Shown in pieces: positions 6,992-57,798 of a DNA stretch of 64,000 bases (position 1 is its first letter; each line of letters begins with the position of its first letter). The translations under genes and the position numbers were made by a program. Below the pieces are notes generated by a model. The model saw only the letters and a list, made by a program, of their open reading frames with translations. It searched no databases and was not told where the DNA came from. The DNA is from Bacteroidota bacterium (GTDB lineage: Bacteria; Bacteroidota; Bacteroidia; Flavobacteriales_D; Crocinitomicaceae), in NCBI GenBank assembly GCA_024280295.1, contig JAJRQK010000039.1:186001-250000 (forward strand). The letters run 5' to 3'.

Positions 6992-8182
6992 ATGACTAAA
7001 AGACTCCTTTTTAGCATTTTATTTCTTATTTCAAGTGTTGCTGTTTTTGGGCAAACATATCTTGATAGCACTGTGAATAGTTCCACTAAAAAAGTTCTAT
7101 TTGCTGACCCTAATACCTTTGCAATTGGCTCTTATGGTGAAGCTCATTACAACCAAGAAATTGTTGATGGAACATATCAAAATGGAACAATGGATTTGCA
7201 TCGAGTGATCCTGTTTCTGGGTTATAAATTCAATAAAAATCTTCAATTCTTTACAGAGATTGAATTCGAGCATGTAAGTGAGCTTTTCGTTGAACAAGCC
7301 TATTTAAATTATAGCATAAACAGTGCATTTAATATAAAAGGTGGGGTTATTCTCATCCCAATGGGGTATGTAAATGAATTCCATGAACCAACTCTCTTTA
7401 ATGGTGTAGAGCGTCCCGATTTTTCAAAATATATACTTCCTAGTACATGGCAAGAAATGGGGCTTGGTTTCCATGGTCTTCTTAAAAAAGTAAATTTAAA
7501 ATACCAGGTTTACATGGTAAATGGATTTATGGGATATGATGGAGCAGCTAAATTTTCGGGGAGCAGCGGACTTCGTGGAGGACGTCAAAAGGGAGCCAAA
7601 GCAACATTTAGATCGCCTTCAATTACAGGTAAAATGACCTTTTATGGACTAAACGGATTACGGTTAGGAATCTCTGGATATTATGGCAATTCTGAGTCAA
7701 TTGCTTATGATGGACTCGATAAAACAGATGAAAGCACAATTAAAACGGCAGATAGTACCAGTGTCGGCATCGCGATGACAGCAATTAATGCGGAGTATAA
7801 TCTTGGTGGTCTTACCTTGAAAGCGGTGGCAAGTTGGACTTCAATTTCCGGCACAGATCAATACAACGACTTTACAGGAGCGAATTTAGGAAGTAAGATA
7901 ATGGGCTATTATACTGAAGTGGCGTACAAAATTAAGATAAAAAAAGATAAAAATTTCCCTCGCTTAATACCATTTGTTCGATACGAAAATTACGATACTC
8001 ATTATTCCGTTCGCGAAGGAATCACAAAAAATGAAGCCTTTAATCGAGAGGTATTAACTGGAGGTCTTGGTTTTCAAATTACACCTGGAACGATACTCAA
8101 AACGGATTTTCAATGGGTAAAAACCGTTGCTAATCCAAAACCAACAAATGTATTTAACCTAGGCTTCGGATACTGGTTCTAA
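6992..8182 (+). CDS. Outer-membrane porin (OprO/OprP-like)
   Basis: 396 residues, with a signal peptide ending at about residue 21 (VAVFGQ). The barrel begins with GSYGEAHYNQEI and continues with regularly spaced amphipathic strands (LHRVILFLGYKF, LQFFTEIEFEHV, LKAVASWTSISG). It ends NLGFGYWF, a canonical outer-membrane C-terminal strand with terminal phenylalanine. Motifs such as GGVILIPMGYVNE and RPDFSKYILPSTWQEMGLG are those of the phosphate-selective-porin-like family widespread in Bacteroidota. It is followed after 1 bp by the FMN-binding protein, so the two are probably one operon. The real solute is unknown. Confidence 0.85.
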   Translation: MTKRLLFSILFLISSVAVFGQTYLDSTVNSSTKKVLFADPNTFAIGSYGEAHYNQEIVDGTYQNGTMDLHRVILFLGYKFNKNLQFFTEIEFEHVSELFVEQAYLNYSINSAFNIKGGVILIPMGYVNEFHEPTLFNGVERPDFSKYILPSTWQEMGLGFHGLLKKVNLKYQVYMVNGFMGYDGAAKFSGSSGLRGGRQKGAKATFRSPSITGKMTFYGLNGLRLGISGYYGNSESIAYDGLDKTDESTIKTADSTSVGIAMTAINAEYNLGGLTLKAVASWTSISGTDQYNDFTGANLGSKIMGYYTEVAYKIKIKKDKNFPRLIPFVRYENYDTHYSVREGITKNEAFNREVLTGGLGFQITPGTILKTDFQWVKTVANPKPTNVFNLGFGYWF

Positions 8183-8183
8183 T

Positions 8184-8741
8184 ATGAGAATTACCTTCAA
8201 CATATCAGCGTTACTTTTTGGCACACTCGTCATGATGGCCTTTGTATCTCCACAGAAGAAGATCGATAAAATTATCTCTAAGGTGTGGAAAGACAAAGAA
8301 GTAACTGCAATTCGTAAGTCTGTTCCTGATTCACTTGAACAGGATATTATGATGCTCAGTGAAGTGGTTTCTGAAGGTAAAACAATAGGGTATGTTTGTT
8401 ACGCAATGGCTTTTGGCTGTCAAATTGGTGGTTGTGCCGCTCCATCAAGTCCAAACGCACAAACCTATGAGACCTTTGACTACATTGTGGTTTACGATAA
8501 TGAATTAAAAATCTTAAAAGTTGATATCGCAGATTATGGTGGACAGTATGGTTATGAAATTTGTCGTAAGAAGTGGTTGTCCCAATTCAGAGGAAAGAAC
8601 GGTGGTTTTGTCCTCGATGGAAACATTGATGGAATATCTGGGGCAACGATCTCAGCTAAATACTTGATAGATGATCTTAACCTGATTGGAGAAAAATTAT
8701 TAGCTCTTGATTTGTCCAAACTCGTTGCTCACAAGTCTTAA
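8184..8741 (+). CDS. Exported FMN-binding domain protein with a Cys-rich insert
   Basis: 185 residues with an N-terminal signal or anchor (ISALLFGTLVMMAFVS). The C-terminal FMN_bind domain ends with DGISGATIS, the flavinylation motif in which ApbE attaches FMN to the threonine of SGAT. The preceding strands (FDYIVVYDNELKILKVDI, WLSQFRGK) match periplasmic single-domain FMN carriers. Unusual is the segment VCYAMAFGCQIGGCA (about residues 71-86), three cysteines where relatives I know usually read a plain hydrophobic strand, plus a fourth Cys in YEICRK. It may bind a metal or form disulfides. Paired with the upstream porin. Probably an extracytoplasmic electron carrier; no ApbE gene is in the window. 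Confidence 0.85.
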   Translation: MRITFNISALLFGTLVMMAFVSPQKKIDKIISKVWKDKEVTAIRKSVPDSLEQDIMMLSEVVSEGKTIGYVCYAMAFGCQIGGCAAPSSPNAQTYETFDYIVVYDNELKILKVDIADYGGQYGYEICRKKWLSQFRGKNGGFVLDGNIDGISGATISAKYLIDDLNLIGEKLLALDLSKLVAHKS

Positions 8742-9572
8742 TTAATGTTTCGTCTTTTTCAAGCAGCAATTCCGAAATTTCTTCCCACTATCACATGGAC
8801 AGGGATCCCAATGTTGGATAACTTTAGCTTTTTTTCTCAATGACCGATCTACCAAAGGTTGTCCAAAAATAAGCTCCATGTATTCGTACAGTACAGGATG
8901 CTTCTTAGCTAATAATTGCGGTCGCTCGAAAAAATATTCTCCTACAACTGACAAGAATTCAGCTTCATTTGTTGCCCCATAAGCTCGAATATCACTTTTG
9001 CTGGCTCGAATTTCTTCGATTTTTTTCTTCATTAGATGAACCCACGGTACAACATTTGAATTTGCTTTTAATGTGGGAAGAATCCCATCAATATCGCCAT
9101 CCGCCTTATCAATTAAGTGAATAAACTCATGTATTGCTGTGTTGCTTTTATCCGTTTCATTTTTGAACCCGTGATGTAATGACTTTTTGGAAATAATCAT
9201 TTTTCCATCCATGTACCCGAATCCAACCATGCCTAAAATTGCCTTTGAATGTGAGCCAATGGCGAAGTTATCATCAAAGTGTGCTGGATAAAGCAGTACT
9301 TCATTCAAATTGTGGTAATACCAATTTGAAAATGCAAAAATAGGGATGATCGCACTAGCAGCGAGTAACATTCTATCTTCGTCTTCAACGGTTGTTTTTA
9401 TTCCAGTGATTGTTGTTGTGGATAAAAATACCAGCATTCGCTTTTCAAAATGACGCCGTTTATCATCTGAGAGATTCCTGTAAAAGGGAACACTTGTAAC
9501 AAGTTTTGACTTCCAGTGAACAGGAAACACAGTGATTGCGTTCTGCTTATTCTTTCGTTTGAACCAACACAT
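8742..9572 (-). CDS. mtfA: MtfA-like zinc peptidase (M90) with C-terminal SEC-C motif
   Basis: 276 residues. The MtfA core carries the zinc motif HEFIHLID (His 148, Glu 149, His 152) and the downstream ATNEAEFLSVVGEYFFE, which holds the family's third-ligand region. The N-terminal part (LSDDKRRHFEKRMLVFL, AASAIIPIFA) is also typical. At the C-terminus (about residues 255-270) there is an added CPCDSGKKFRNCC, a SEC-C zinc-binding motif as found in SecA tails. The product is probably a cytosolic peptidase; MtfA in enterobacteria binds the glucose-PTS regulator Mlc, which is unlikely here. The ATG overlaps the stop of the upstream gene by one base (TAATG), so the two are coupled. Its stop is adjacent to that of the convergent FMN-binding gene. 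Confidence 0.88.
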   Translation of the reverse strand: MCWFKRKNKQNAITVFPVHWKSKLVTSVPFYRNLSDDKRRHFEKRMLVFLSTTTITGIKTTVEDEDRMLLAASAIIPIFAFSNWYYHNLNEVLLYPAHFDDNFAIGSHSKAILGMVGFGYMDGKMIISKKSLHHGFKNETDKSNTAIHEFIHLIDKADGDIDGILPTLKANSNVVPWVHLMKKKIEEIRASKSDIRAYGATNEAEFLSVVGEYFFERPQLLAKKHPVLYEYMELIFGQPLVDRSLRKKAKVIQHWDPCPCDSGKKFRNCCLKKTKH

Positions 9573-10225
9573 TAATCTCGTTCTTGTTGTGACTCTTCAA
9601 CTGGAGATTTTTCTAATTCCTCCTCTATATCATTAAATTCTATCCCTTCTAAACCGTTCTTCTCTCCAGTAACAACCAACTTAAATGATTTCAGTATTTT
9701 TTTCATCCGCCTCATGGAGTTTATTTTTCCTTTTCCACGTAGAGAAAGCGCTGTTATTCCAATGTAATAATTTCCAAAAATTGTGACTGCCGAATAAAAA
9801 TGTTCGTATTTCAATTCCCCAAGCTTTCCTTTAAATCCAGAAATTAAAAACTCTCGCCCTTTAATTTCTACAACCTTAGGTTTTGTGGTAAAATCTGCAT
9901 CATCTATCTGTTCATTTTCGGCACGTTTAATAATCTTAAGCATGTAATCTTCTAATGACTTCCCTCCTGTACTGGTATGCATAATCGTGAGTAGATCTCC
10001 CGTGTAGTTTTGCATCCTTAATAAGTCGAACTTAAAAGTCGTATCTGATACATAAATGGCTAACTCTACAAATTGAATTTCTTGAGTATCACGGTATAGC
10101 CCTTTTGGAATATCAAGCTCAAAAGAAAGACCATCATGTACATAAGGACTCTCATAAATAGACTGCGCACTGACATTCAGCGAGCACAAAATCACCCAAA
10201 TACTAGCGTAAACCTGTTTCATCAT
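9572..10225 (-). CDS. Secreted protein of unknown function
   Basis: 217 residues with a clear signal peptide (VYASIWVILCSLNVSAQS). The mature part has a mixed alpha/beta pattern (LSFELDIPKGL, LLTIMHTSTGG, FGNYYIGITALSL) and a charged tail (EEELEKSPVEESQQERD). It resembles the PsbP-like/DUF-type small periplasmic proteins of Bacteroidota in outline, but I do not recognise a family. The ORF has two adjacent ATGs; either gives the same signal peptide. It is the first gene of a two-gene unit with the MtfA-like peptidase, linked by a one-base stop/start overlap. A minus-strand TATCTTTA at 10241-10248 is a possible -7 box, 16 bp before the ATG. Confidence 0.6.
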   Translation of the reverse strand: MMKQVYASIWVILCSLNVSAQSIYESPYVHDGLSFELDIPKGLYRDTQEIQFVELAIYVSDTTFKFDLLRMQNYTGDLLTIMHTSTGGKSLEDYMLKIIKRAENEQIDDADFTTKPKVVEIKGREFLISGFKGKLGELKYEHFYSAVTIFGNYYIGITALSLRGKGKINSMRRMKKILKSFKLVVTGEKNGLEGIEFNDIEEELEKSPVEESQQERD

Positions 10226-47644: not shown

Positions 47645-49267
47645 ATGAAGAAACTTGAAGGAAATATAGTTGATGTTGTAAACAAACAAATTTACAAAGG
47701 AGAAATCACCATTGAAAACGGAAAGATCAGTCAAATTCGTAAATGTGAAACTGATGAGAGTCAATACATAATACCTGGCTTCGTTGATGCTCATGTTCAT
47801 ATAGAAAGCTCCATGCTCATCCCCTCAGAGTTTGCTCGATTAGCAGTATGTCACGGAAGTGTTGCTACTATATCAGACCCGCACGAAATAGGGAATGTTC
47901 TCGGTAAATCTGGCGTCGAATACATGGTGAACAATGGACTTAAAACACCTTTTAAGTTCCATTTTGGAGCTCCATCATGTGTTCCCGCAACCATTTTTGA
48001 AACGGCAGGAGCTGAAATCACCTTAGATGATATAGAAGAAATATTTAAACTTCCACGTGTTAACTACCTAGCGGAGATGATGAACTTCCCAGGTGTACTC
48101 AACCGTGATCCAGAGGTCATGGATAAAATCAATTTGGCAATTAAACTGGGTAAACAAGTCGATGGTCATGCGCCTGGACTAATGGGCGAAGAGGCAAAAC
48201 ATTACATCGAAGCAGGAATTACAACCGATCATGAATGCTTTACCAAACCTGAAGCTCTCAATAAATTGAAGCATGGGATGAAGATCATCATTCGTGAAGG
48301 ATCCGCGGCAAAGAATTTCGAAGCACTTTGGACTTTAATAGATGAATTTCCTGAGCAAATAATGCTTTGTTCTGATGATAAACATCCAAATGATTTAGCT
48401 GTTGGACACATAAACGTTCTTGCGAGACGTTCAATTGCAAAGGGCTGCGATCTGTTTAATGTACTTAGAGCCGCTTCCTACAATACAGTAATGCACTATC
48501 GAATGGATGTTGGTTTGCTTCAACAAAATGATCCTGCTGATTTTTGTATTGTCGATAATCTCACCGATTTTAATGTAAGTGCCACATACATTGACGGAGA
48601 GTTGGTAGCTGAAAATGGCTCAACATTAATTGATTCAGTTCATGAAGAAATAGTAAATAATTTTTCGTGTTCAGAAATTTTGGAAAATCAACTAAAAGTT
48701 GATGCCAAATCTAACAACGTACAAGTTATTTGTGTCGAAGATGGTCAGTTAATCACTACTAATGAGGTTGTAACCTTGACAAACCAAGATGGTGCTCTCA
48801 ACATAGATGTGGAGAATGATATTTTGAAAATTGCTGTTGTTAATCGTTATATGGATGCCCCACCAGCTTTGGGGTTCGTAAAGAATTTTGGATTGAAACA
48901 CGGAGCAATTGCCTCATGTGTAGCGCATGACAGCCATAATATTATCGCTGTTGGGACGAATGATACTGACCTATGCACAGCTATTAATGCAATTATTCGC
49001 GAAACGGGAGGTGTTTCACTGGCAAATGGTGGTGAATTAAAAACAGTGGCACTCCCAGTTGCTGGGATTATGTCTAACCTTGACGGATATCAAGTTGCTG
49101 ATGCCTATGAAAAACTCGACTTGAGATCAAAAGAATTGGGAGCAACGCTTGCGGCTCCATATATGACACTGTCATTTTGTGCCCTCTTAGTTATTCCCAA
49201 ATTGAAACTCAGCGATAAAGGCTTGTTTAACGGCGAAACTTTTAGTTTTACGAGCGTTTGCGTGTAA
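47645..49267 (+). CDS. ade: Adenine deaminase
   Basis: 540 residues, amidohydrolase superfamily, converts adenine to hypoxanthine plus ammonia in purine salvage. Metal-binding motif GFVDAHVHIESSM; ISDPHEIGNVLG; DGHAPGLMG; TDHECFTKPEA; the catalytic region SDDKHPNDL; and the C-terminal AdeC-specific domain with FVKNFGLKHGAIASCVAHDS and NGGELKTVALPVAGIMS. Length and motif order are as in the AdeC family. It is monocistronic, and a hairpin at 49293-49317 follows within 26 bp. Confidence 0.95.
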   Translation: MKKLEGNIVDVVNKQIYKGEITIENGKISQIRKCETDESQYIIPGFVDAHVHIESSMLIPSEFARLAVCHGSVATISDPHEIGNVLGKSGVEYMVNNGLKTPFKFHFGAPSCVPATIFETAGAEITLDDIEEIFKLPRVNYLAEMMNFPGVLNRDPEVMDKINLAIKLGKQVDGHAPGLMGEEAKHYIEAGITTDHECFTKPEALNKLKHGMKIIIREGSAAKNFEALWTLIDEFPEQIMLCSDDKHPNDLAVGHINVLARRSIAKGCDLFNVLRAASYNTVMHYRMDVGLLQQNDPADFCIVDNLTDFNVSATYIDGELVAENGSTLIDSVHEEIVNNFSCSEILENQLKVDAKSNNVQVICVEDGQLITTNEVVTLTNQDGALNIDVENDILKIAVVNRYMDAPPALGFVKNFGLKHGAIASCVAHDSHNIIAVGTNDTDLCTAINAIIRETGGVSLANGGELKTVALPVAGIMSNLDGYQVADAYEKLDLRSKELGATLAAPYMTLSFCALLVIPKLKLSDKGLFNGETFSFTSVCV

Positions 49268-50215: not shown

Positions 50216-50815
50216 TTACAACCCTTTTAAAATGGCTGAAATGTCTGTTGCGGAAGGGTTATACTCCAACGCAATAGTATAGTGCTTTTTTGCTTCTTTG
50301 ATCTTGCCTAGTTTTACATAGATGCTTCCAAGCAGTGCATTTGAATTATAGTCGAAAGGATAAAGGCTTAAGATTTTTTTTAGATGCGTCTCTGCTGTGG
50401 TATATTTTTTCCGCACGAAATAGATGTATGCAAGTTGATATCTTGAACTTGTGTGATTACCATCAATAGACAGTATTGCAGTGTAAACTTTAATGACTTC
50501 ATCCCAATTACTCATCACCTGAAGTGGGTAAATAAGTCCGAGTCTAGCTTCAATACTAGAAGGCTTCAACTTGATTGCGGTAGTGTAAAAACTTTTAGAT
50601 TTAAGATAATTGGCATTGAGGTAATGTAACCAACCCAATCGTAAATTGGCACTATAAGAGCTGCTTAAATCTATTTTCTCCAAAGTGGAGATTGCTTTTT
50701 GATACTGTCCACTGGCCTCATAGGCATAACTAGTCTTAAAAACTTCTACTGAATTTCCTTGTGCGAAAGAACTAACACTGATCGCTGTGATTGCTATAAT
50801 AAAAATATATTTCAT
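50216..50815 (-). CDS. Exported TPR protein
   Basis: 199 residues. Signal peptide (FIIAITAISVSSFAQ), then about five tetratricopeptide repeats: YAYEASGQYQKAISTLEKI, LRLGWLHYLNANYLKSKSFY, SRYQLAYIYFVRKKYTTAE, LLGSIYVKLGKIKEAKKHY. It should be periplasmic. Last gene of the minus-strand cluster that begins with the PqqD-like protein, only 4 bp after the TPR-barrel gene. In such positions TPR proteins bind partners; here perhaps the outer-membrane protein next door. Confidence 0.85.
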   Translation of the reverse strand: MKYIFIIAITAISVSSFAQGNSVEVFKTSYAYEASGQYQKAISTLEKIDLSSSYSANLRLGWLHYLNANYLKSKSFYTTAIKLKPSSIEARLGLIYPLQVMSNWDEVIKVYTAILSIDGNHTSSRYQLAYIYFVRKKYTTAETHLKKILSLYPFDYNSNALLGSIYVKLGKIKEAKKHYTIALEYNPSATDISAILKGL

Positions 50816-50819
50816 GTTG

Positions 50820-52181
50820 TTAAAGTTTAAATTTTAGCCCTAAATAGATTGAATTCAATCGGTAATCTACTCCATTAAAATTATCGAATACGGATTCGTA
50901 CTGATAAGTCAAATAAAGATGTGTTTTTTTTGAAATTGAATATTTAGTAGTTAAACTATATCGTGTCAACGGTGCAAAATAATTGAAGAGTTGAGAACCT
51001 TCGAATAAACTTATAGCGTAGTTCCCTTTTTTGAAATAGTAAGCAGAAAACTGAAGTTTTTCACTGATATTTATCTTTAAATAAGGAGAAAAGAAAAAGT
51101 TTGAATTTCCATCGTTCAAGATAAATTTTAAATCACTTCCCGCCGTAATGAACCAATGGGAATACGAAAAATCCATGCCAATGGTATATTGATTGATTGT
51201 CGCGCCAACAGGTTGTGATGTGCTGTCATTGACCTCAATTGATTGGCTAATGATTGCTGGACCTGTTCGTTCGGTAATCACTGTCGAATCATAATAAGTT
51301 TCTAAGTAATTTGACTGTCCTTTTGAAGTATAGAATCCAAAATACCCCGAAGTAATAATGTTGTTCCACTTTTTTGTAAATCTCGGTTCTATCAATAAAC
51401 CTAGCTCTTTATACGTTCCATTTATTTGATAAGATGAATCGGCTAAAGTGTCAATAAAACTTGCCCCAGGGAATCCCATTGGAGGTGGGGATTGGTAAGT
51501 GCCTTCCCAGAGAAAATCAAAAACTCCATCAAATAATGACCCGTGGAGTCCTAAGTTTAATTTGGTCGATTTATTGAATAAATAAGATGGATTCGCATAA
51601 TATTGATGCTGTGTATAGTTCCCCCAATTTAATGATTGTGAATTAAAAGTGTATGCTTGAACAAAAGCAATTTTCCCTGTTAGATGATGAGTCAAACCAA
51701 GGTTTAAGTAGGTAGCATTGTTAGCGAACTGCCTGTCACTTGCAAGCTTTAACCCGTATTCCAAATAGATGCTTGATAATTTCTTATTTGGAGTGTAAGC
51801 GATGCGCTGTTGTGTGCTATCATCCAGTTGCGTGTACCATTCTTTCGCTTCTTTCTCCTTTAATAAATGATAATTGCTCCAAAACAAATATTCTACCGCT
51901 ATTTTATTGTAGGAGTTATTTTGATTTGCCTTGGTGAGAAATTCTAAGCTCGATTTATAATCTTCTAACTTAAAATAGGCAATTCCCATTCTGAGATTAA
52001 AATAAAAATAATCCGCGCCATTCTGAGTAGTTTTTTCACCAAATTCAATCAATTTCTCCCAATCCTCATTGACAAAATGTTTATAGGTAACACTATCCAC
52101 TTGCTTATAGTCTTCTTGCGCGAAGAGAATGAATCCTCCCGATAGAAACATAAAGAAAATATAAAGAGTTAATCGACGCAT
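50820..52181 (-). CDS. TPR plus outer-membrane beta-barrel protein (YaiO-like architecture)
   Basis: 453 residues. Signal peptide (FFMFLSGGFILFAQE); TPR-like helices at about 30-115 (FNLRMGIAYFKLEDYKSSLEFL); then about 16 amphipathic strands from about 135 to the end (YLEYGLKLAS, YLNLGLTHHL, YFKKGNYAISLFEG). It ends in LNSIYLGLKFKL, a barrel-type C-terminal strand. The combination of periplasmic TPR and barrel resembles YaiO-type proteins, but I cannot assign a solute. Its ATG overlaps the end of the transporter-peptidase gene by 13 bp, so translation is coupled. Confidence 0.8.
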   Translation of the reverse strand: MRRLTLYIFFMFLSGGFILFAQEDYKQVDSVTYKHFVNEDWEKLIEFGEKTTQNGADYFYFNLRMGIAYFKLEDYKSSLEFLTKANQNNSYNKIAVEYLFWSNYHLLKEKEAKEWYTQLDDSTQQRIAYTPNKKLSSIYLEYGLKLASDRQFANNATYLNLGLTHHLTGKIAFVQAYTFNSQSLNWGNYTQHQYYANPSYLFNKSTKLNLGLHGSLFDGVFDFLWEGTYQSPPPMGFPGASFIDTLADSSYQINGTYKELGLLIEPRFTKKWNNIITSGYFGFYTSKGQSNYLETYYDSTVITERTGPAIISQSIEVNDSTSQPVGATINQYTIGMDFSYSHWFITAGSDLKFILNDGNSNFFFSPYLKINISEKLQFSAYYFKKGNYAISLFEGSQLFNYFAPLTRYSLTTKYSISKKTHLYLTYQYESVFDNFNGVDYRLNSIYLGLKFKL

Positions 52182-54352
52182 ATTGCTATTATTTTTTTTG
52201 AATTCAGTGTCATCTGTAATTTTTCAATACGGTTGTTCTCCACAATGATTTCGGCATCAATCTCCCCACTTTCCTTTCCAAAATAGGAACCTTTTGAATT
52301 GGTCGAAAAAACAATCTTTGTAGGCAGATGCTCATTCTCAATTTCGGCGAATTGCATTTGATAATTTGCCTTGCAATAATGAAAAAACGGTGCCGTAAAA
52401 TCGTGAAGTCCTTTCACAACAGGTGAGAAAAATGCATCAATCAGTAGTTTATCCTTAATGATCGCACCTTTGTAATAACCCAATAAGACACGATGTACAG
52501 CTATGTAAAATAAATGCAAAAAGGACTTTTTACTTCCGTAGAAATCGGTGAAATAAAATAGCGTTCCGTTGTTTACAAAATAAGCAGTGGATTTTGTCTT
52601 GTGACAATAGAGGTAAGTAAGATTAGCAGGAGTCGTAAAGATTTCCCAATTTGTTGTGTAGGTGGCTTTATTCTCTTCTGTGATTTCAAATGAAATTTTT
52701 TGTCCAGGAATAAAGTGGAATGCATCCTTGAGCAATTTTGTTGGATTAATATTACTGACAATGTCCTGCTCTTTTGGAATATCAAAGGAATGGAAGTCAA
52801 ACCCCTCGTCATTCTTGGTTAAGTAATAACTGATCGGGTATTTTAATGTTTTTGACCCAACAAATGGCGTTGCTTGCAATTGAAAGTGAAGATGCGGTTC
52901 TGGAGATCTACCCGAACTTCCACAATAGGCAAGAATATCACCTTTTGATACAAAATCACCCCGTTTTACTTGTGCCGTGTCCTTTTTAAGGTGGGATAAT
53001 TTACTATAAATGTAGTCTCCATGCTTGATAATTAAGGTATTTCCCCAATTGTTCTCAAGATCAACATCTCCAATTTCGTTGTCTTCAATTCCATCGATAA
53101 CTTCAACGATCCATCCGTTAGCGGGAGAGGATACAGGGAGATCATAACAGAAATAGTCTTTTAATTGATATCCTGGATCTTTGAAAGTGTCTCCATTCTC
53201 ATTTACAACATCAAAATCCAACGCTTGTGCCCATTCTCCTTTATGGGTCATATCGCCATCATAACCTTGTGAAATTCTCCAATTCCCAGTTATTGGCAAG
53301 GAGATATGGAAATAAGTATCGGAACTAAAGCGATCCAACGAATTGTAATATTTATAATGGTTTTTCTCTGGAGAAAACTGTTGCAAGGTAACTAGCTGGA
53401 GCCCGGATGATTTATACCTTAACGCCATCGCAGACAAGAACAATAGAACAACAATGTTAAATGGCAACGAATACAACGGCAGTCCAAATTGTGAAAATAA
53501 AGTATGGAGTGCGCTAATAAGTAATGCAATAATTGGAATGGTAAGAAGTAGAATTAGGAATGATTTCTTAGATGGAATCACGAAAAATCCTCCAAGAGCA
53601 ATCGCTGTTAATATGAAATTGAAGCCGATATAACTATAAATCAACTGGGAGAAATCACCTTCTAGGTAATAGTAGAATAAGTATCCAATTGTGAATCCAA
53701 ATATGGAAAGAACAAATCCAATTCTTGAATAGATTAAAAGTCCAATAACAATGAAGACACCCGCTAAATCATTAAATTGAAAAAAGATTGCTCCAAGTGA
53801 TCTTAAGTAAAGCAATATGGCATTTGAAAACGGTAAATCACCTATAAATTCAGTAGTTCCAGAGAATAATCCTGGGAAATAGCGCACTAATGACAGTGTC
53901 TCTTTTTGATTTAATTCGAGTGCGGTAAAATTATTTGCTCCAAGAATAATAATCCATACAACCAATAGAAAGGGAATACTCAAAAATGGAAGTCCTTTAT
54001 TCCCCAACGATGTCGCAAACCAAATCGCAATAAAGAAGGTTAAGATTGATGCAACAATGAGTAAAATCAGAAAGGAAAGATTGAAATCGTAGAAAATACC
54101 AATTGCCATACCCACCATAAGTGAATTGTAGGTATACATCCCGTTTCGGATTTGCGAATGACTAAAATTGAACAACAGTGCGGTAATTTGCCCTATCGCG
54201 ACAGCTATAACCCCACTAATTCCTGCACCGATATCAAAAAAACTAACCAACAACAAAAGCACGGCAAGCACTTTGTTGTTGGAAAAGAATACCTGAGAAT
54301 AACTATTAATAAGTCCCTCCCAGGAGAGTTTTATGTGGTATTTCGCTGTCAA
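52169..54352 (-). CDS. Urea-transporter domain fused to M23 metallopeptidase domain
   Basis: 727 residues from a TTG at 54352; no ATG precedes the first conserved helix. Residues about 20-330 form a urea transporter (UT) with ten or so helices: VFFSNNKVLAVLLLLVSFF, NGMYTYNSLMVGMAIG (the UT G-x-x-x-x-N-x-L-x-x-G motif), and a second half-repeat with LPFSNAILLYLRSLGAIFFQ. From about 350 to 510 lies an M23 LytM-type peptidase with the zinc set: His and Asp in HKGEWAQALDFD, SHL, and HxH in PEPHLHFQL. The last roughly 210 residues are beta-rich and unknown. All expected zinc ligands are present. Overlaps the TPR-barrel gene and lies 44 bp after the PLP decarboxylase gene. Confidence 0.85.
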   Translation of the reverse strand: MTAKYHIKLSWEGLINSYSQVFFSNNKVLAVLLLLVSFFDIGAGISGVIAVAIGQITALLFNFSHSQIRNGMYTYNSLMVGMAIGIFYDFNLSFLILLIVASILTFFIAIWFATSLGNKGLPFLSIPFLLVVWIIILGANNFTALELNQKETLSLVRYFPGLFSGTTEFIGDLPFSNAILLYLRSLGAIFFQFNDLAGVFIVIGLLIYSRIGFVLSIFGFTIGYLFYYYLEGDFSQLIYSYIGFNFILTAIALGGFFVIPSKKSFLILLLTIPIIALLISALHTLFSQFGLPLYSLPFNIVVLLFLSAMALRYKSSGLQLVTLQQFSPEKNHYKYYNSLDRFSSDTYFHISLPITGNWRISQGYDGDMTHKGEWAQALDFDVVNENGDTFKDPGYQLKDYFCYDLPVSSPANGWIVEVIDGIEDNEIGDVDLENNWGNTLIIKHGDYIYSKLSHLKKDTAQVKRGDFVSKGDILAYCGSSGRSPEPHLHFQLQATPFVGSKTLKYPISYYLTKNDEGFDFHSFDIPKEQDIVSNINPTKLLKDAFHFIPGQKISFEITEENKATYTTNWEIFTTPANLTYLYCHKTKSTAYFVNNGTLFYFTDFYGSKKSFLHLFYIAVHRVLLGYYKGAIIKDKLLIDAFFSPVVKGLHDFTAPFFHYCKANYQMQFAEIENEHLPTKIVFSTNSKGSYFGKESGEIDAEIIVENNRIEKLQMTLNSKKIIAICVD

Positions 54353-54396: not shown

Positions 54397-55761
54397 CTAT
54401 AATTCAAAAGTACTTAAATGCGATGGGAGGAGTTCATTTCGCTCGACATCCTCCAATGTCTCACTCGATTTTATTTTATGTGGTACTCCTTTCATGTCAA
54501 TCATAACTACCGCAGGACGAAGTGAAATAAATTGCATGGATTGCGTTATGTTGTACGCTCCAACGTAATGTACAACCACATGATCTCCTGCATTTAACGG
54601 CGGAAGCGTTACATTTTCTCGTACCACATCAATGTTCATACAAAGTGGTCCATATAGCACTGTGTCTTCTGTATATTGACTGAATTCTTGTGCCGGTGAG
54701 ACTTTATGATCGTACCAAAATGCAGTGAATAATATATTGACTCCAAAATCCAAAATGGTTGACCTACGCCCATCAGACAGACGTTTATTTGAGATAACAG
54801 AGCCCAACAAGTAACCAGCACTATCAACTAAAGCACGTCCTGTTTCTAAATAAAGGTAAGGAAGTTCATCAGTATCAAATCCTGCATTTAGCAAAGCACT
54901 TGATATTTGTTCTGCATACTCTTCAATATCTGGAACCGCATCAGTGCCTAATTGATAGGATCCTTTTAACGTGTTTTTTGAAGCAAATCCGCCACCCATG
55001 TCAATATAGGTAATGATTTTATCGTATCGTTTTTTAATGTTCAACGCAAGTACCGAAAGTTTTGTTGCTGCGACACCATAAGCGCTAGGAGTTAACATAT
55101 ACGTTCCGATATGACAGTGTAAACCTATTAAATTAAGTTTACCAGATGCCATGATTTTATTAATAGCATCCCAAGCCTCTCCATTTTCGTAATTAAAGCC
55201 AAATCGATCCCACATCGGGTAGATTCCGGTATCCATATTTACACGAATAGCCACGCGAGGTTTTTTATGCATGTCATCTGCAATTTCAATCAAACGATAG
55301 AGCTCATCCAGATGATCAATGTGAATTGGAGAATCATTTTTCACTGCCGTTCTTAAATCATCATCCGTTTTATCTGGTCCGTTGAACAAGATTTTATCTG
55401 CCGGAACTCCGTTTTTTAATGCTTTGTTGTATTCAAACATCGAAACAACTTCCCCCCAAGATCCTTCTTGATGAAAAACATTACAGACAGCATTAATATA
55501 GTTGGTTTTATAAGACCACGCGAATTGAACTTTGGGATAACGTGTTTCAAAAATCCGCTGCGCACTTTGCATGTTTTCTCTAATTTGTCTTTCCGACATG
55601 ACAAACAATGGAGATCCATATTCGGCAATGAGATCTTTAACCTTAACCCCATCAATATGAGTCTTTGGAGCATATTCAGTTCGTGTCCCAAACTTATTCA
55701 TTAAACCAGAATTTAAGGGCTTGATAATTGGCCTTTCGTATGTTTTTTTTTCTATATCCAT
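54397..55761 (-). CDS. PLP-dependent decarboxylase, fold type III (LysA/BtrK-like)
   Basis: 454 residues from the ATG at 55761; a TTG at 55818 would overlap the ATP-grasp gene. Alanine-racemase-like barrel with the Schiff-base lysine in FAWSYKTNY (Lys 85), HCHIGTYMLTPSAYG, the phosphate loop DMGGGFASKN, and the C-terminal beta domain with ETGRALVDSAGYLLG and YGPLCMNIDVV (active-site Cys). The family includes diaminopimelate decarboxylase and the decarboxylases of ornithine, carboxyspermidine and butirosin (BtrK). Neighbourhood argues against plain lysine synthesis: it sits with an ATP-grasp ligase and a PqqD-like protein. The substrate could be an amino acid attached by that ligase. Confidence 0.88.
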   Translation of the reverse strand: MDIEKKTYERPIIKPLNSGLMNKFGTRTEYAPKTHIDGVKVKDLIAEYGSPLFVMSERQIRENMQSAQRIFETRYPKVQFAWSYKTNYINAVCNVFHQEGSWGEVVSMFEYNKALKNGVPADKILFNGPDKTDDDLRTAVKNDSPIHIDHLDELYRLIEIADDMHKKPRVAIRVNMDTGIYPMWDRFGFNYENGEAWDAINKIMASGKLNLIGLHCHIGTYMLTPSAYGVAATKLSVLALNIKKRYDKIITYIDMGGGFASKNTLKGSYQLGTDAVPDIEEYAEQISSALLNAGFDTDELPYLYLETGRALVDSAGYLLGSVISNKRLSDGRRSTILDFGVNILFTAFWYDHKVSPAQEFSQYTEDTVLYGPLCMNIDVVRENVTLPPLNAGDHVVVHYVGAYNITQSMQFISLRPAVVMIDMKGVPHKIKSSETLEDVERNELLPSHLSTFEL

Positions 55762-55786
55762 CTTAAAACAATTTTTTGTAATCAAT

Positions 55787-56836
55787 TTATAATTCTCCGA
55801 GTGTAGAGATTTGTTCAAATTCTTTCATGTCTACAATCATATCTTGCGAATAACGAATAAACATTTTTCCTACTTCGTAATCTTTAAACGGAATTACTTT
55901 TGTACCCATAGTCAGATTAACGAGTGCTTCGATTTGATTTTGTCCTGCACCAACTGCCAAATAACACCAGGCAGGGAAACGAGGATTAATTTCAATGAGG
56001 TAATATTCATCTTCGTTCGTTTTCATAAACTCAAGTTCAAATGGGCCATTCCATTTTGTTTTTTGGACTAAATCTCGCGTGATATCAAGTAGTTTTTTAT
56101 CGTCTAAAGATACTCCTGCCCATGCTTTTCCTTTATCGGTAATGAATAGTTTCCGCATAGGAACTGCTCCTATTGTTTCGCCTTTAGAGTCGCCAACTCC
56201 GCAAACATTTACTTCAGCACCGTGAACAAATTCTTGAACGAGAACAGGCAGCCCCCATTCTGCGCTAATCTTATTAAAATGCTGCATTGCTTGATCAGGA
56301 GTATGTGCAATCAGAGCATCGTAGAACTTTCCTTTTATAACTAATGGGAACCCTAATTCGGATGCAATTGCCGGAATTTCTGTAGTATTAAAGATCATTT
56401 TTGCGAAGGGGACCTTTATTCCATGCTCTTTTCCATAATCGAATAAGTTTACCTTGTGGCGAGCTTCAAACTGTTCTTGTGTGGGCAATGACATTTTGAT
56501 TCCAAGTTCGTCCCACAGTCGCTTTTCTAACGAAATATAGTTGAACAATTCGGCATCGAAATTGGGGAACAAGAAGTCCACATCTTCCACAGCGTTAATG
56601 TATTTAAATCGCTCGAACAAAACTTCCTGTCCAGCTGATGGGTAAGGGACTTGATATGTTTTATCCACATATTCGTGCATGTAAATTCCAGGTTCTAGTG
56701 TTTCGTAGGAAAGTCCAATTATTCTAACATCAAAACTCTGCGCGTCTTTTAATGATCGAATAACTGCCATTCCCGGCCCTGGACTATCAATGGCATTAAG
56801 TCCCGTTACAGCAATTGTATATTTTGGTTTACTCAT
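55787..56836 (-). CDS. ATP-grasp ligase (carbamoyl-phosphate-synthase-like)
   Basis: 349 residues. Pre-ATP-grasp Rossmann part YTIAVTGLNAIDSPGPGMAV; substrate pocket region LFPNFDAELFNYI; ATP-grasp lid FPLVIKGKFYDALIA and VLVQEFVHGAEVNV; Mg-binding end FELEFMKTNEDEYYLIEINPRFPAWCY (Glu and Asn). Enzymes of this kind join a carboxylate to an amine or thiol through an acyl phosphate. It starts 2 bp after the PqqD-like gene stop and its own stop is 25 bp before the decarboxylase ATG. The pairing of ATP-grasp ligase and type III decarboxylase recalls BtrJ/BtrK in butirosin synthesis, where an amino acid is activated on a carrier and then decarboxylated. Confidence 0.85.
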   Translation of the reverse strand: MSKPKYTIAVTGLNAIDSPGPGMAVIRSLKDAQSFDVRIIGLSYETLEPGIYMHEYVDKTYQVPYPSAGQEVLFERFKYINAVEDVDFLFPNFDAELFNYISLEKRLWDELGIKMSLPTQEQFEARHKVNLFDYGKEHGIKVPFAKMIFNTTEIPAIASELGFPLVIKGKFYDALIAHTPDQAMQHFNKISAEWGLPVLVQEFVHGAEVNVCGVGDSKGETIGAVPMRKLFITDKGKAWAGVSLDDKKLLDITRDLVQKTKWNGPFELEFMKTNEDEYYLIEINPRFPAWCYLAVGAGQNQIEALVNLTMGTKVIPFKDYEVGKMFIRYSQDMIVDMKEFEQISTLGEL

Positions 56837-56838
56837 AG

Positions 56839-57078
56839 CTAGTCGATTAATTTATAGTTTTCTAGCATCCGTATGAAATCATTCAAATCTTTTTCAACAG
56901 TGTTTTTATCAATTCGATATTCTTGAAGAATATCATCCAAGATCTCTTTATCTGATTTCCGTTCTTGGAAGGAGTTAATAATTGATTGCCCGATTGGATT
57001 TACGGAAAATGAATCTCCAGTCAATGGGTTAAAAATAAATCCTGAATCACTGACTGCTATATTTTTTCGAATTTTCAT
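56839..57078 (-). CDS. PqqD-like protein (possible RiPP recognition element)
   Basis: 79 residues with the PqqD fold pattern: a beta hairpin IAVSDSGFIFNPLTGDSFSVN, then helices IGQSIINSFQERKSDKEILD and EKDLNDFIRMLENYKLID. PqqD-like proteins bind leader peptides and deliver them to modifying enzymes (RiPP recognition element). First gene of the tight cluster with the ATP-grasp ligase 2 bp downstream. I looked for a precursor peptide in 57079-57201 and in the other intergenic gaps of the cluster and saw none of convincing length, so the client may be encoded elsewhere or the protein may have another role. Confidence 0.8.
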   Translation of the reverse strand: MKIRKNIAVSDSGFIFNPLTGDSFSVNPIGQSIINSFQERKSDKEILDDILQEYRIDKNTVEKDLNDFIRMLENYKLID

Positions 57079-57201: not shown

Positions 57202-57798
57202 TCACCTAGTAAGTAGGTCATCAAGGGCAACCCTAACTGGTTGTTCCATCTCTTTGTATTCCGAAAACGTGCATCCTGAAATTTGTTTGAACTGTCGGCT
57301 GAGGTATTGGACACTACTGTATCCTAGTTGATAAGAAATCTCGCTCAAGGTTAGTGAATCTTCAAGAACAAGTTCCTTCGCTTTTTCAATCTTTAGGAGA
57401 ATAATGTACTTTTCAAGGGTTGTTCCTGTAATTTTCGAAAACACTTTACTGATTTTATCGTATGGTTCTTGAATACGGTCACTAATATAATCTGAGTTCC
57501 GAATAATCGAATTGTTATTATTCGAGAACATGATTAATTCGATTGCGGCAATTTTTATTTTTTCTGTTAGGATGGTTTCTTTGTCGATTATAACCTCGAA
57601 ACCAATATTTTTAAAATGGGTGCTAATTTGTTCGATTGAAATGATATCCAAATCAGCATAAAGCGAAACCTCCCCTAGAAACACACGATGAACAGTAATA
57701 TCTTCAACTGCATTAAAGTACACTTCCACTAGTTTTAGACAACTTTTGGAGACCATGTTTTTAAGAATGAACAGATGTTCTTTTACCATTTTCGGCAA
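57202..57798 (-). CDS. AraC-family regulator with degenerate HMA-like N-terminal domain
   Basis: 198 residues. N-terminal about 1-75: an HMA-like fold, FILKNMVSKSCLKLVEVYF, strands VFLGEVSL and IGFEVIIDKE. In relatives this region reads with a CxxC metal site; here only the second Cys is left (Ser 16 in place of the first, in MVSKSC). C-terminal about 110-190: AraC double helix-turn-helix, EKYIILLKIEKAKELVLED, LTLSEISYQLGYSSVQYLS and RQFKQISGCTFSEYKE. It lies upstream of, and in line with, the PqqD-like gene (123-bp gap), so it may control the cluster, although it could also be independent. A TGACGTCA palindrome lies at 57193-57200 in that gap. Confidence 0.85.
   Translation of the reverse strand: MPKMVKEHLFILKNMVSKSCLKLVEVYFNAVEDITVHRVFLGEVSLYADLDIISIEQISTHFKNIGFEVIIDKETILTEKIKIAAIELIMFSNNNNSIIRNSDYISDRIQEPYDKISKVFSKITGTTLEKYIILLKIEKAKELVLEDSLTLSEISYQLGYSSVQYLSRQFKQISGCTFSEYKEMEQPVRVALDDLLTR

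Follow-up and report, generated by a model that had tools for sequence, protein, structure and literature searches.

A urea-transporter-fold and M23 peptidase fusion protein encoded in a conserved six-gene operon of Bacteroidota

The gene considered here lies in a stretch of 64,000 nucleotides (the window) from a Bacteroidota bacterium of the Crocinitomicaceae (class Bacteroidia; GenBank assembly GCA_024280295.1, contig JAJRQK010000039.1, positions 186,001 to 250,000). Its product, termed UT-M23, joins a membrane domain of the urea transporter (UT) family, an M23 peptidase domain and a C-terminal beta domain in a single chain. The gene is the fourth member of an operon with a near-fixed order: a PqqD-like protein, an ATP-grasp ligase, a fold-III pyridoxal phosphate (PLP)-dependent decarboxylase, UT-M23, an outer-membrane barrel and a tetratricopeptide repeat (TPR) protein. 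At the window locus, these six genes and the gene upstream of them are arranged as follows:

56839..57078, minus strand: PqqD-like protein of 79 aa (PF05402, 44.8 bits against a cut-off of 23.4), with the fold of peptide chaperones and of the recognition elements (RRE) of ribosomally synthesized and post-translationally modified peptides (RiPPs)
55787..56836, minus strand: ATP-grasp ligase of 349 aa (PF15632 above cut-off; carbamoyl-phosphate-synthase-like models of the PRK12767 type below cut-off)
54397..55818, minus strand: fold-III (alanine-racemase-fold) PLP decarboxylase of 473 aa, closest solved structure 7kh2, with a C-M-N-I-D motif
52169..54352, minus strand: UT-M23 fusion gene, 727 aa (UT 15-308, linker about 309-345, M23 about 346-505, C-terminal beta domain about 506-727)
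50820..52181, minus strand: exported protein of 453 aa, probable outer-membrane beta-barrel with a short N-terminal TPR region (Porin_4 and TPR matches in homologues)
50216..50815, minus strand: TPR protein of 199 aa, apparently with a signal peptide as judged by eye
57202..57798, minus strand: AraC-type DNA-binding protein, upstream of the operon

The window's own copy of the barrel protein gave no profile match above cut-off, and the last 13 bases of the UT-M23 gene fall within its frame.

The UT-M23 frame starts with TTG and runs through 727 codons without internal stops. The Pfam UT profile (PF03253) matches residues 15-308 with 201.4 bits (cut-off 25) over profile positions 5-290 of 292, and Peptidase_M23 (PF01551) matches residues 406-493 with 52.9 bits (cut-off 28.7). 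In an alignment of 66 of the 68 fusion sequences collected from the class (the two omitted have 537 and 513 aa), the zinc and catalytic residues H370, D379, H454, H487 and H489 are invariant, and the set is likewise complete in 16/16 aligned fusions from outside the class. Together, the profile match and the H..D, H and HxH residues place the domain in the M23 metallopeptidase family. A first-pass annotation, made from the letters of the window, had described one reading frame with both domains, all M23 zinc ligands present and a C-terminal region of roughly 210 residues without an assigned family; each of these points was borne out, the strand now being given as minus, and no Pfam family matched the C-terminal region. 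That annotation had also raised the possibility that a sequence error joins two genes. An artefact of this kind was rejected, since many genomes encode a chain of about 730 aa with the same architecture, so that a chance junction or a local error is excluded. Consequently, UT-M23 is confirmed as a true fusion protein.

Full-chain structure prediction, proposed earlier as a check on both the pore and the peptidase, delivered only the second. In the AlphaFold model, built with 8 sequences, the M23 and C-terminal parts were modelled well, while the UT half mostly remained below a pLDDT of 50; all statements on the UT domain therefore rest on profiles and alignments. Modelled by itself, the C-terminal domain is mostly beta (mean pLDDT 79). 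Its Foldseek matches are weak and LolA/LolB-like (best E 1.2e-3 to 8cgm, TM 0.34-0.40), and VIA-align also gave weak results, with an unrelated porin at the top (Z 9.2) and LolA at a Z of about 8 (rmsd 3.2-3.5 Å over 114-118 residues).

Of the class, 395 genomes were sampled: 104 have a UT match, and 82 carry a UT frame of fusion length (≥500 aa), frame length being taken as the sign of a fusion wherever the frame itself was not read. The other UT genomes comprise three in which a contig edge truncates the UT, and 21 with a stand-alone UT, two of these 21 also having a fusion. Across the phylum, 27 of 296 sampled genomes matched the whole protein at E 1e-30 or better, 22 of them outside the class; two of the outside-class cases are exceptional, one genome (G398) carrying the protein as two frames and the match in another (G601) ending at residue 516. 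A FastTree phylogeny of 98 UT domains (66 fused from the class, 16 fused from outside it, 16 stand-alone) split fused from stand-alone domains with a support of 0.80. A single origin of the fusion would fit this split, although the support is not strong.

The two frames of G398, a single-contig genome, overlap and lie at 7944-10198 of locus L101: one encodes the UT and the other the M23 and C-terminal parts, the latter beginning without a signal peptide. Its use as a natural gene split, and thereby as proof of the side on which M23 resides, was dropped, as similarity continues past the start codon and the split may well stem from a frameshift or an error of sequencing. In a further genome, G057, the UT-M23 gene is also in two frames, and so is the LysA gene there.

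The survey of fusion frequency and neighbours suggested by the first-pass annotation uncovered, besides the counts given above, the six-gene operon, which was absent from that annotation and is the best clue to function. Sixty-eight loci were examined (the window, seven named contigs and 60 of the 82 fusion genomes). Clustering of neighbouring proteins recovered the barrel at 62 loci, the TPR protein at 62, the decarboxylase at 61 and the ATP-grasp ligase at 60, on the strand of the fusion in all cases except one member of the TPR cluster. A PqqD-like gene is present at 59 of the 60 ligase loci, 57 of them by profile and two (L004 and L005) beyond these; the remaining locus, L006, ends at a contig edge. 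The complete order PqqD-ligase-decarboxylase-UT-barrel-TPR was called in 52/68 loci; the cluster counts are safer for the barrel gene, since the barrel profile used in the order call cross-hits TPR proteins. At E 1e-60 for the decarboxylase and E 1e-30 for the ligase, homologues of the two enzymes occur in an identical set of 76/395 class genomes. Seventy-two of these carry the fusion as a full or near-full frame; in three the UT runs into a contig edge, and in the last, G253, the M23 part lies at the start of a contig. Outside the class, the decarboxylase accompanies UT-M23 in 22/22 genomes, PqqD, ligase, decarboxylase and UT follow in order at 18/18 loci, and a TPR gene comes next at 15 of the 18. 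Conservation of the operon across many families of a large phylum, with its order mostly kept, suggests a common, selected function.

Other neighbours are less constant. Genes related to the AraC-type gene occur upstream in 16/68 loci, making it an optional neighbour, and an adenine deaminase-type amidohydrolase encoded downstream on the opposite strand (window 47645-49267, plus strand) is not conserved alongside the operon. At L005, the PqqD-like and ATP-grasp genes are separated by an inserted gene whose product ends in a C-terminal sorting-type tail; we take it to be multicopper-oxidase-like, from its sequence features rather than from a family search. The PqqD-like gene of L004 lies at about the same upstream distance as that of L005. 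Assignment of the operon to a defence system was rejected, as PADLOC returned no match for the six proteins.

The best match of the decarboxylase in the PDB is 7kh2, an N-citrylornithine decarboxylase (E 1.7e-57). Its CMNID motif is invariant in 60/60 sequences, Met being the residue after the catalytic Cys. The protein scores 216.5 bits with the LysA model TIGR01048 (cut-off 297.9) and 239 bits with the FslC model NF041039 (cut-off 500), and thus stays below both thresholds. That it is simply the ordinary LysA was rejected for most genomes: a separate LysA scored above cut-off in 19 of the 20 tested, and Met follows the Cys.

To assess the pore, filter columns were taken from an alignment of UT-M23 with dvUT, the UT channel of Desulfovibrio vulgaris, in which we take Q24 to be the So residue, E187 the Si residue and T130 and T294 the Sm pair. 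The alignment held the 66 fusions and 16 stand-alone UTs, namely those of the 21 listed class genomes that were among the fetched loci. At the Si position, 16/16 stand-alone proteins have Gln or Glu and the fusions have Ala (56), Ser (5), Gly (4) or Tyr (1); the 16 outside-class fusions have Leu, Ala, Ile, Phe or Tyr, never Gln or Glu. Both Sm positions are Thr in 16/16 stand-alone class UTs and Ser in 58 and 54 of the 66 fusions. The window protein has Ala at the equivalent of E187 and Ser at both Sm sites. The So Gln is retained in 56/66 fusions, and the pore Phe and Asn positions are largely retained. Four fusions checked from genomes without ligase and decarboxylase (L051, L056, L057 and L098) have lost the So Gln too. 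UT-M23 reaches 135.4 bits with the Yut-type equivalog model TIGR03441 (cut-off 274.6). The urea filter is thus not preserved, and UT-M23 is classed as a relative with the UT fold, not as a urea transporter. As the Si residue is changed in 66/66 aligned fusions, the pore probably serves a cargo other than, or besides, urea; the channel part seems to have been kept by selection, though probably not for urea. The earlier proposal had allowed for loss of the pore residues: the UT profile match and the So Gln stood, the Si Gln/Glu is lost and the Sm Thr is mostly Ser. The slots and the oxygen ladder of UT channels are described in general terms in the accessible part of PMC2868824.

The first-pass annotation had found no urease gene in the window, and the wider genome data agree: the urease alpha subunit was found in 1/60 genomes with fusion and decarboxylase and not in the window's genome, and a urease partner was rejected on this count. 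It was equally rare (1/29) in another group of genomes, whose UTs are mostly stand-alone, so that absence of urease does not separate fused from stand-alone UTs.

Averaged hydropathy indicates ten hydrophobic segments in the UT domain and no further one between UT and M23, which places both ends of the UT domain on one side of the membrane. The loop at about residues 231-238 presumably corresponds to the place of the Kidd-antigen residue in human UT-B. The Kidd-antigen residue is extracellular according to the accessible part of the source (PMC10541013). Over the 66 fusions, the predicted inner loops carry 8.5 Lys/Arg residues compared with 3.3 in the outer loops (1.0 without the 40-residue linker); inner exceeds outer in 65/66, one being equal, and the same bias is seen in 16/16 outside-class fusions and 16/16 stand-alone UTs. 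UT homology and the positive-inside rule thus make it rather probable that the M23 and C-terminal domains lie in the cytoplasm. The M23 and C-terminal part is rich in Cys, which would suit the cytoplasm, and C402 and C477 tend to co-occur (47 with both, 7 with neither, 12 with one only). Cys content as proof of a cytoplasmic M23 was dropped, since exported relatives also have Cys at the C477 position; the cysteines do not settle the side.

Drawing on what was observed directly (gene order, co-occurrence, intact M23 zinc site, changed UT filter and the subtype motif of the decarboxylase), UT-M23 can tentatively be read as the membrane part of a conserved operon whose six genes serve biosynthesis and release, a reading that we favour while placing it somewhat short of an even chance. 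In this scheme, the ATP-grasp enzyme would couple a carboxylic acid with either an amine or a carrier, and the PqqD-like protein would serve as recognition or carrier subunit. The decarboxylase would then remove CO2 from the acylated amino acid, by analogy with FigC/FslC acting on N-citrylornithine and BtrK acting on a glutamyl-carrier. At the cytoplasmic face, M23 would cut an amide or peptide bond, trimming or freeing the product beside the channel mouth, and a small neutral product would leave passively through the modified UT pore and cross the outer membrane via the barrel, with help from the TPR protein. The product would be a small amine or amide, urea not being a likely cargo. A more specific version is doubtful as a whole: an enzyme-coupled channel in which the cytoplasmic M23 hydrolase releases the last ligase-decarboxylase intermediate into a re-purposed UT pore, the six genes forming a phylum-wide export system.

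Several observations weigh against the biosynthesis-and-release reading. At the thresholds applied, neither ligase nor decarboxylase was found in ten of the 82 fusion genomes. Incompleteness may account for at least two of them (at L060 in G307 the decarboxylase is truncated where the contig ends, and the completeness of G209 is 68%). At least four enzyme-less genomes (L051, L056, L057 and L098) keep UT-M23 followed by TPR and barrel genes in swapped order, which implies that the envelope half can work alone. A search for a precursor peptide (ORFs of 18-120 aa on the same strand, 1.5 kb upstream and 6 kb downstream) found no conserved small ORF besides PqqD across lineages; the remaining clusters cover at most 12 loci, and the members shown belong to a single group of close genera and resemble out-of-frame matches. 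Among stand-alone M23 proteins, the nearest relatives inspected (L119-L126) are, judged by eye, exported: four, of about 240-350 aa, have a signal peptide or lipobox, and four have about four N-terminal membrane helices with M23 apparently outside. The weak fold matches of the C-terminal domain are mostly to periplasmic LolA/LolB-like proteins; both the exported relatives and these matches favour a periplasmic M23. Finally, the window's genome (98.8% complete) has no other LysA above cut-off, nor has the related genome G131. With only the operon decarboxylase and a LysA remnant found there (about 60 codons of the C-terminus, L100, contig C12 25531-25656), this enzyme might also act in lysine synthesis in that organism.

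A first alternative is an envelope or cell-wall module, in which a periplasmic M23 remodels peptidoglycan together with the TPR protein and the barrel, and the UT domain is an anchor or takes up a released fragment that decarboxylase and ligase recycle. The intact zinc site, the exported M23 relatives, the LolA-like matches and the envelope character of the TPR and barrel partners argue for it. It is nevertheless unlikely, as both UT homology and loop charge point to a C-terminus in the cytoplasm (65/66 and 16/16), no hydrophobic segment has been added between UT and M23 and the decarboxylase lacks the acidic residue that diaminopimelate decarboxylase (DAPDC) has beside its catalytic Cys. Muropeptides are, moreover, too large for a UT pore. 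The first-pass annotation had combined passage of a non-urea solute with local opening of the wall by the peptidase. The former part probably holds; the latter is not favoured, because it needs a periplasmic M23, contrary to the predicted topology, even though kinship with stand-alone M23 proteins argues the opposite.

Quite improbable is a RiPP-type pathway, in which a ribosomal precursor peptide from a gene elsewhere is bound by the PqqD-like protein, modified by ligase and decarboxylase and stripped of its leader by a cytoplasmic M23. The PqqD fold serves as RiPP recognition element in many pathways, several related chaperone models matched below cut-off and M23 is a peptidase, but apart from PqqD, no small ORF near the operon is conserved across lineages, and peptides would not pass a UT-type pore. 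A true urea (or ammonia or amide) channel for nitrogen or osmotic needs, with M23 as a regulatory or degenerate appendage, has in its favour the strong UT profile score (201 bits) and the retained So Gln, Phe and Asn positions, and is very unlikely in view of the lost Si Gln/Glu (66/66 and 16/16), the Sm Ser residues where stand-alone UTs keep Thr, the invariant M23 ligands, which speak against degeneration, and the scarcity of urease, non-discriminating alone.

Each part of the biosynthesis-and-release operon belongs to a known family. A search of open-licence PMC papers for the UT-M23 fusion, its operon or the ligase-decarboxylase logic gave no description of the fusion or of the operon, though the architecture may be listed automatically in domain databases. 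If the predicted topology is right, UT-M23 would combine an M23 hydrolase working inside the cell with a UT pore that has evolved away from urea, and the product of the operon might be a widespread metabolite new to science.

Among known systems, dvUT (3k3f/3me1) shows homology to the fusion along the entire UT domain (E about 1e-23), and the ten hydrophobic segments and most pore Phe, Asn and Leu positions are common to bacterial UT channels and UT-M23. In contrast to dvUT and Yersinia Yut, UT-M23 adds the M23 and C-terminal domains, has lost the Si Glu/Gln, mostly has Ser for the Sm Thr in the class and is not paired with urease. The M23 model shares its fold with LytM peptidoglycan hydrolases (lysostaphin, ShyA, DipM and Csd3; VIA-align Z about 13, rmsd 2.4-3.0 Å over 120-132 residues, in agreement with Foldseek) and all five ligand and catalytic positions, but sits on a channel protein and is predicted to face the cytoplasm. 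Cytoplasmic, chromosomally encoded M23 proteins are not mentioned in the accessible part of a review of the family (PMC9662197). The decarboxylase shares the Cys-Met motif with the N-citrylornithine decarboxylases FigC/FslC and differs from them in having an ATP-grasp enzyme, not an NIS synthetase, as its operon partner; from DAPDC it is set apart by the missing acidic residue next to the catalytic Cys. The closest parallel to the enzyme pair is offered by butirosin biosynthesis, where BtrJ, which we take to be the ATP-grasp ligase, stands beside the fold-III decarboxylase BtrK. In the accessible part of its description, BtrK acts on a glutamyl-carrier, the carrier BtrI having 87 residues; the operon, by contrast, encodes no acyl-carrier protein, and its small partner is PqqD-like.

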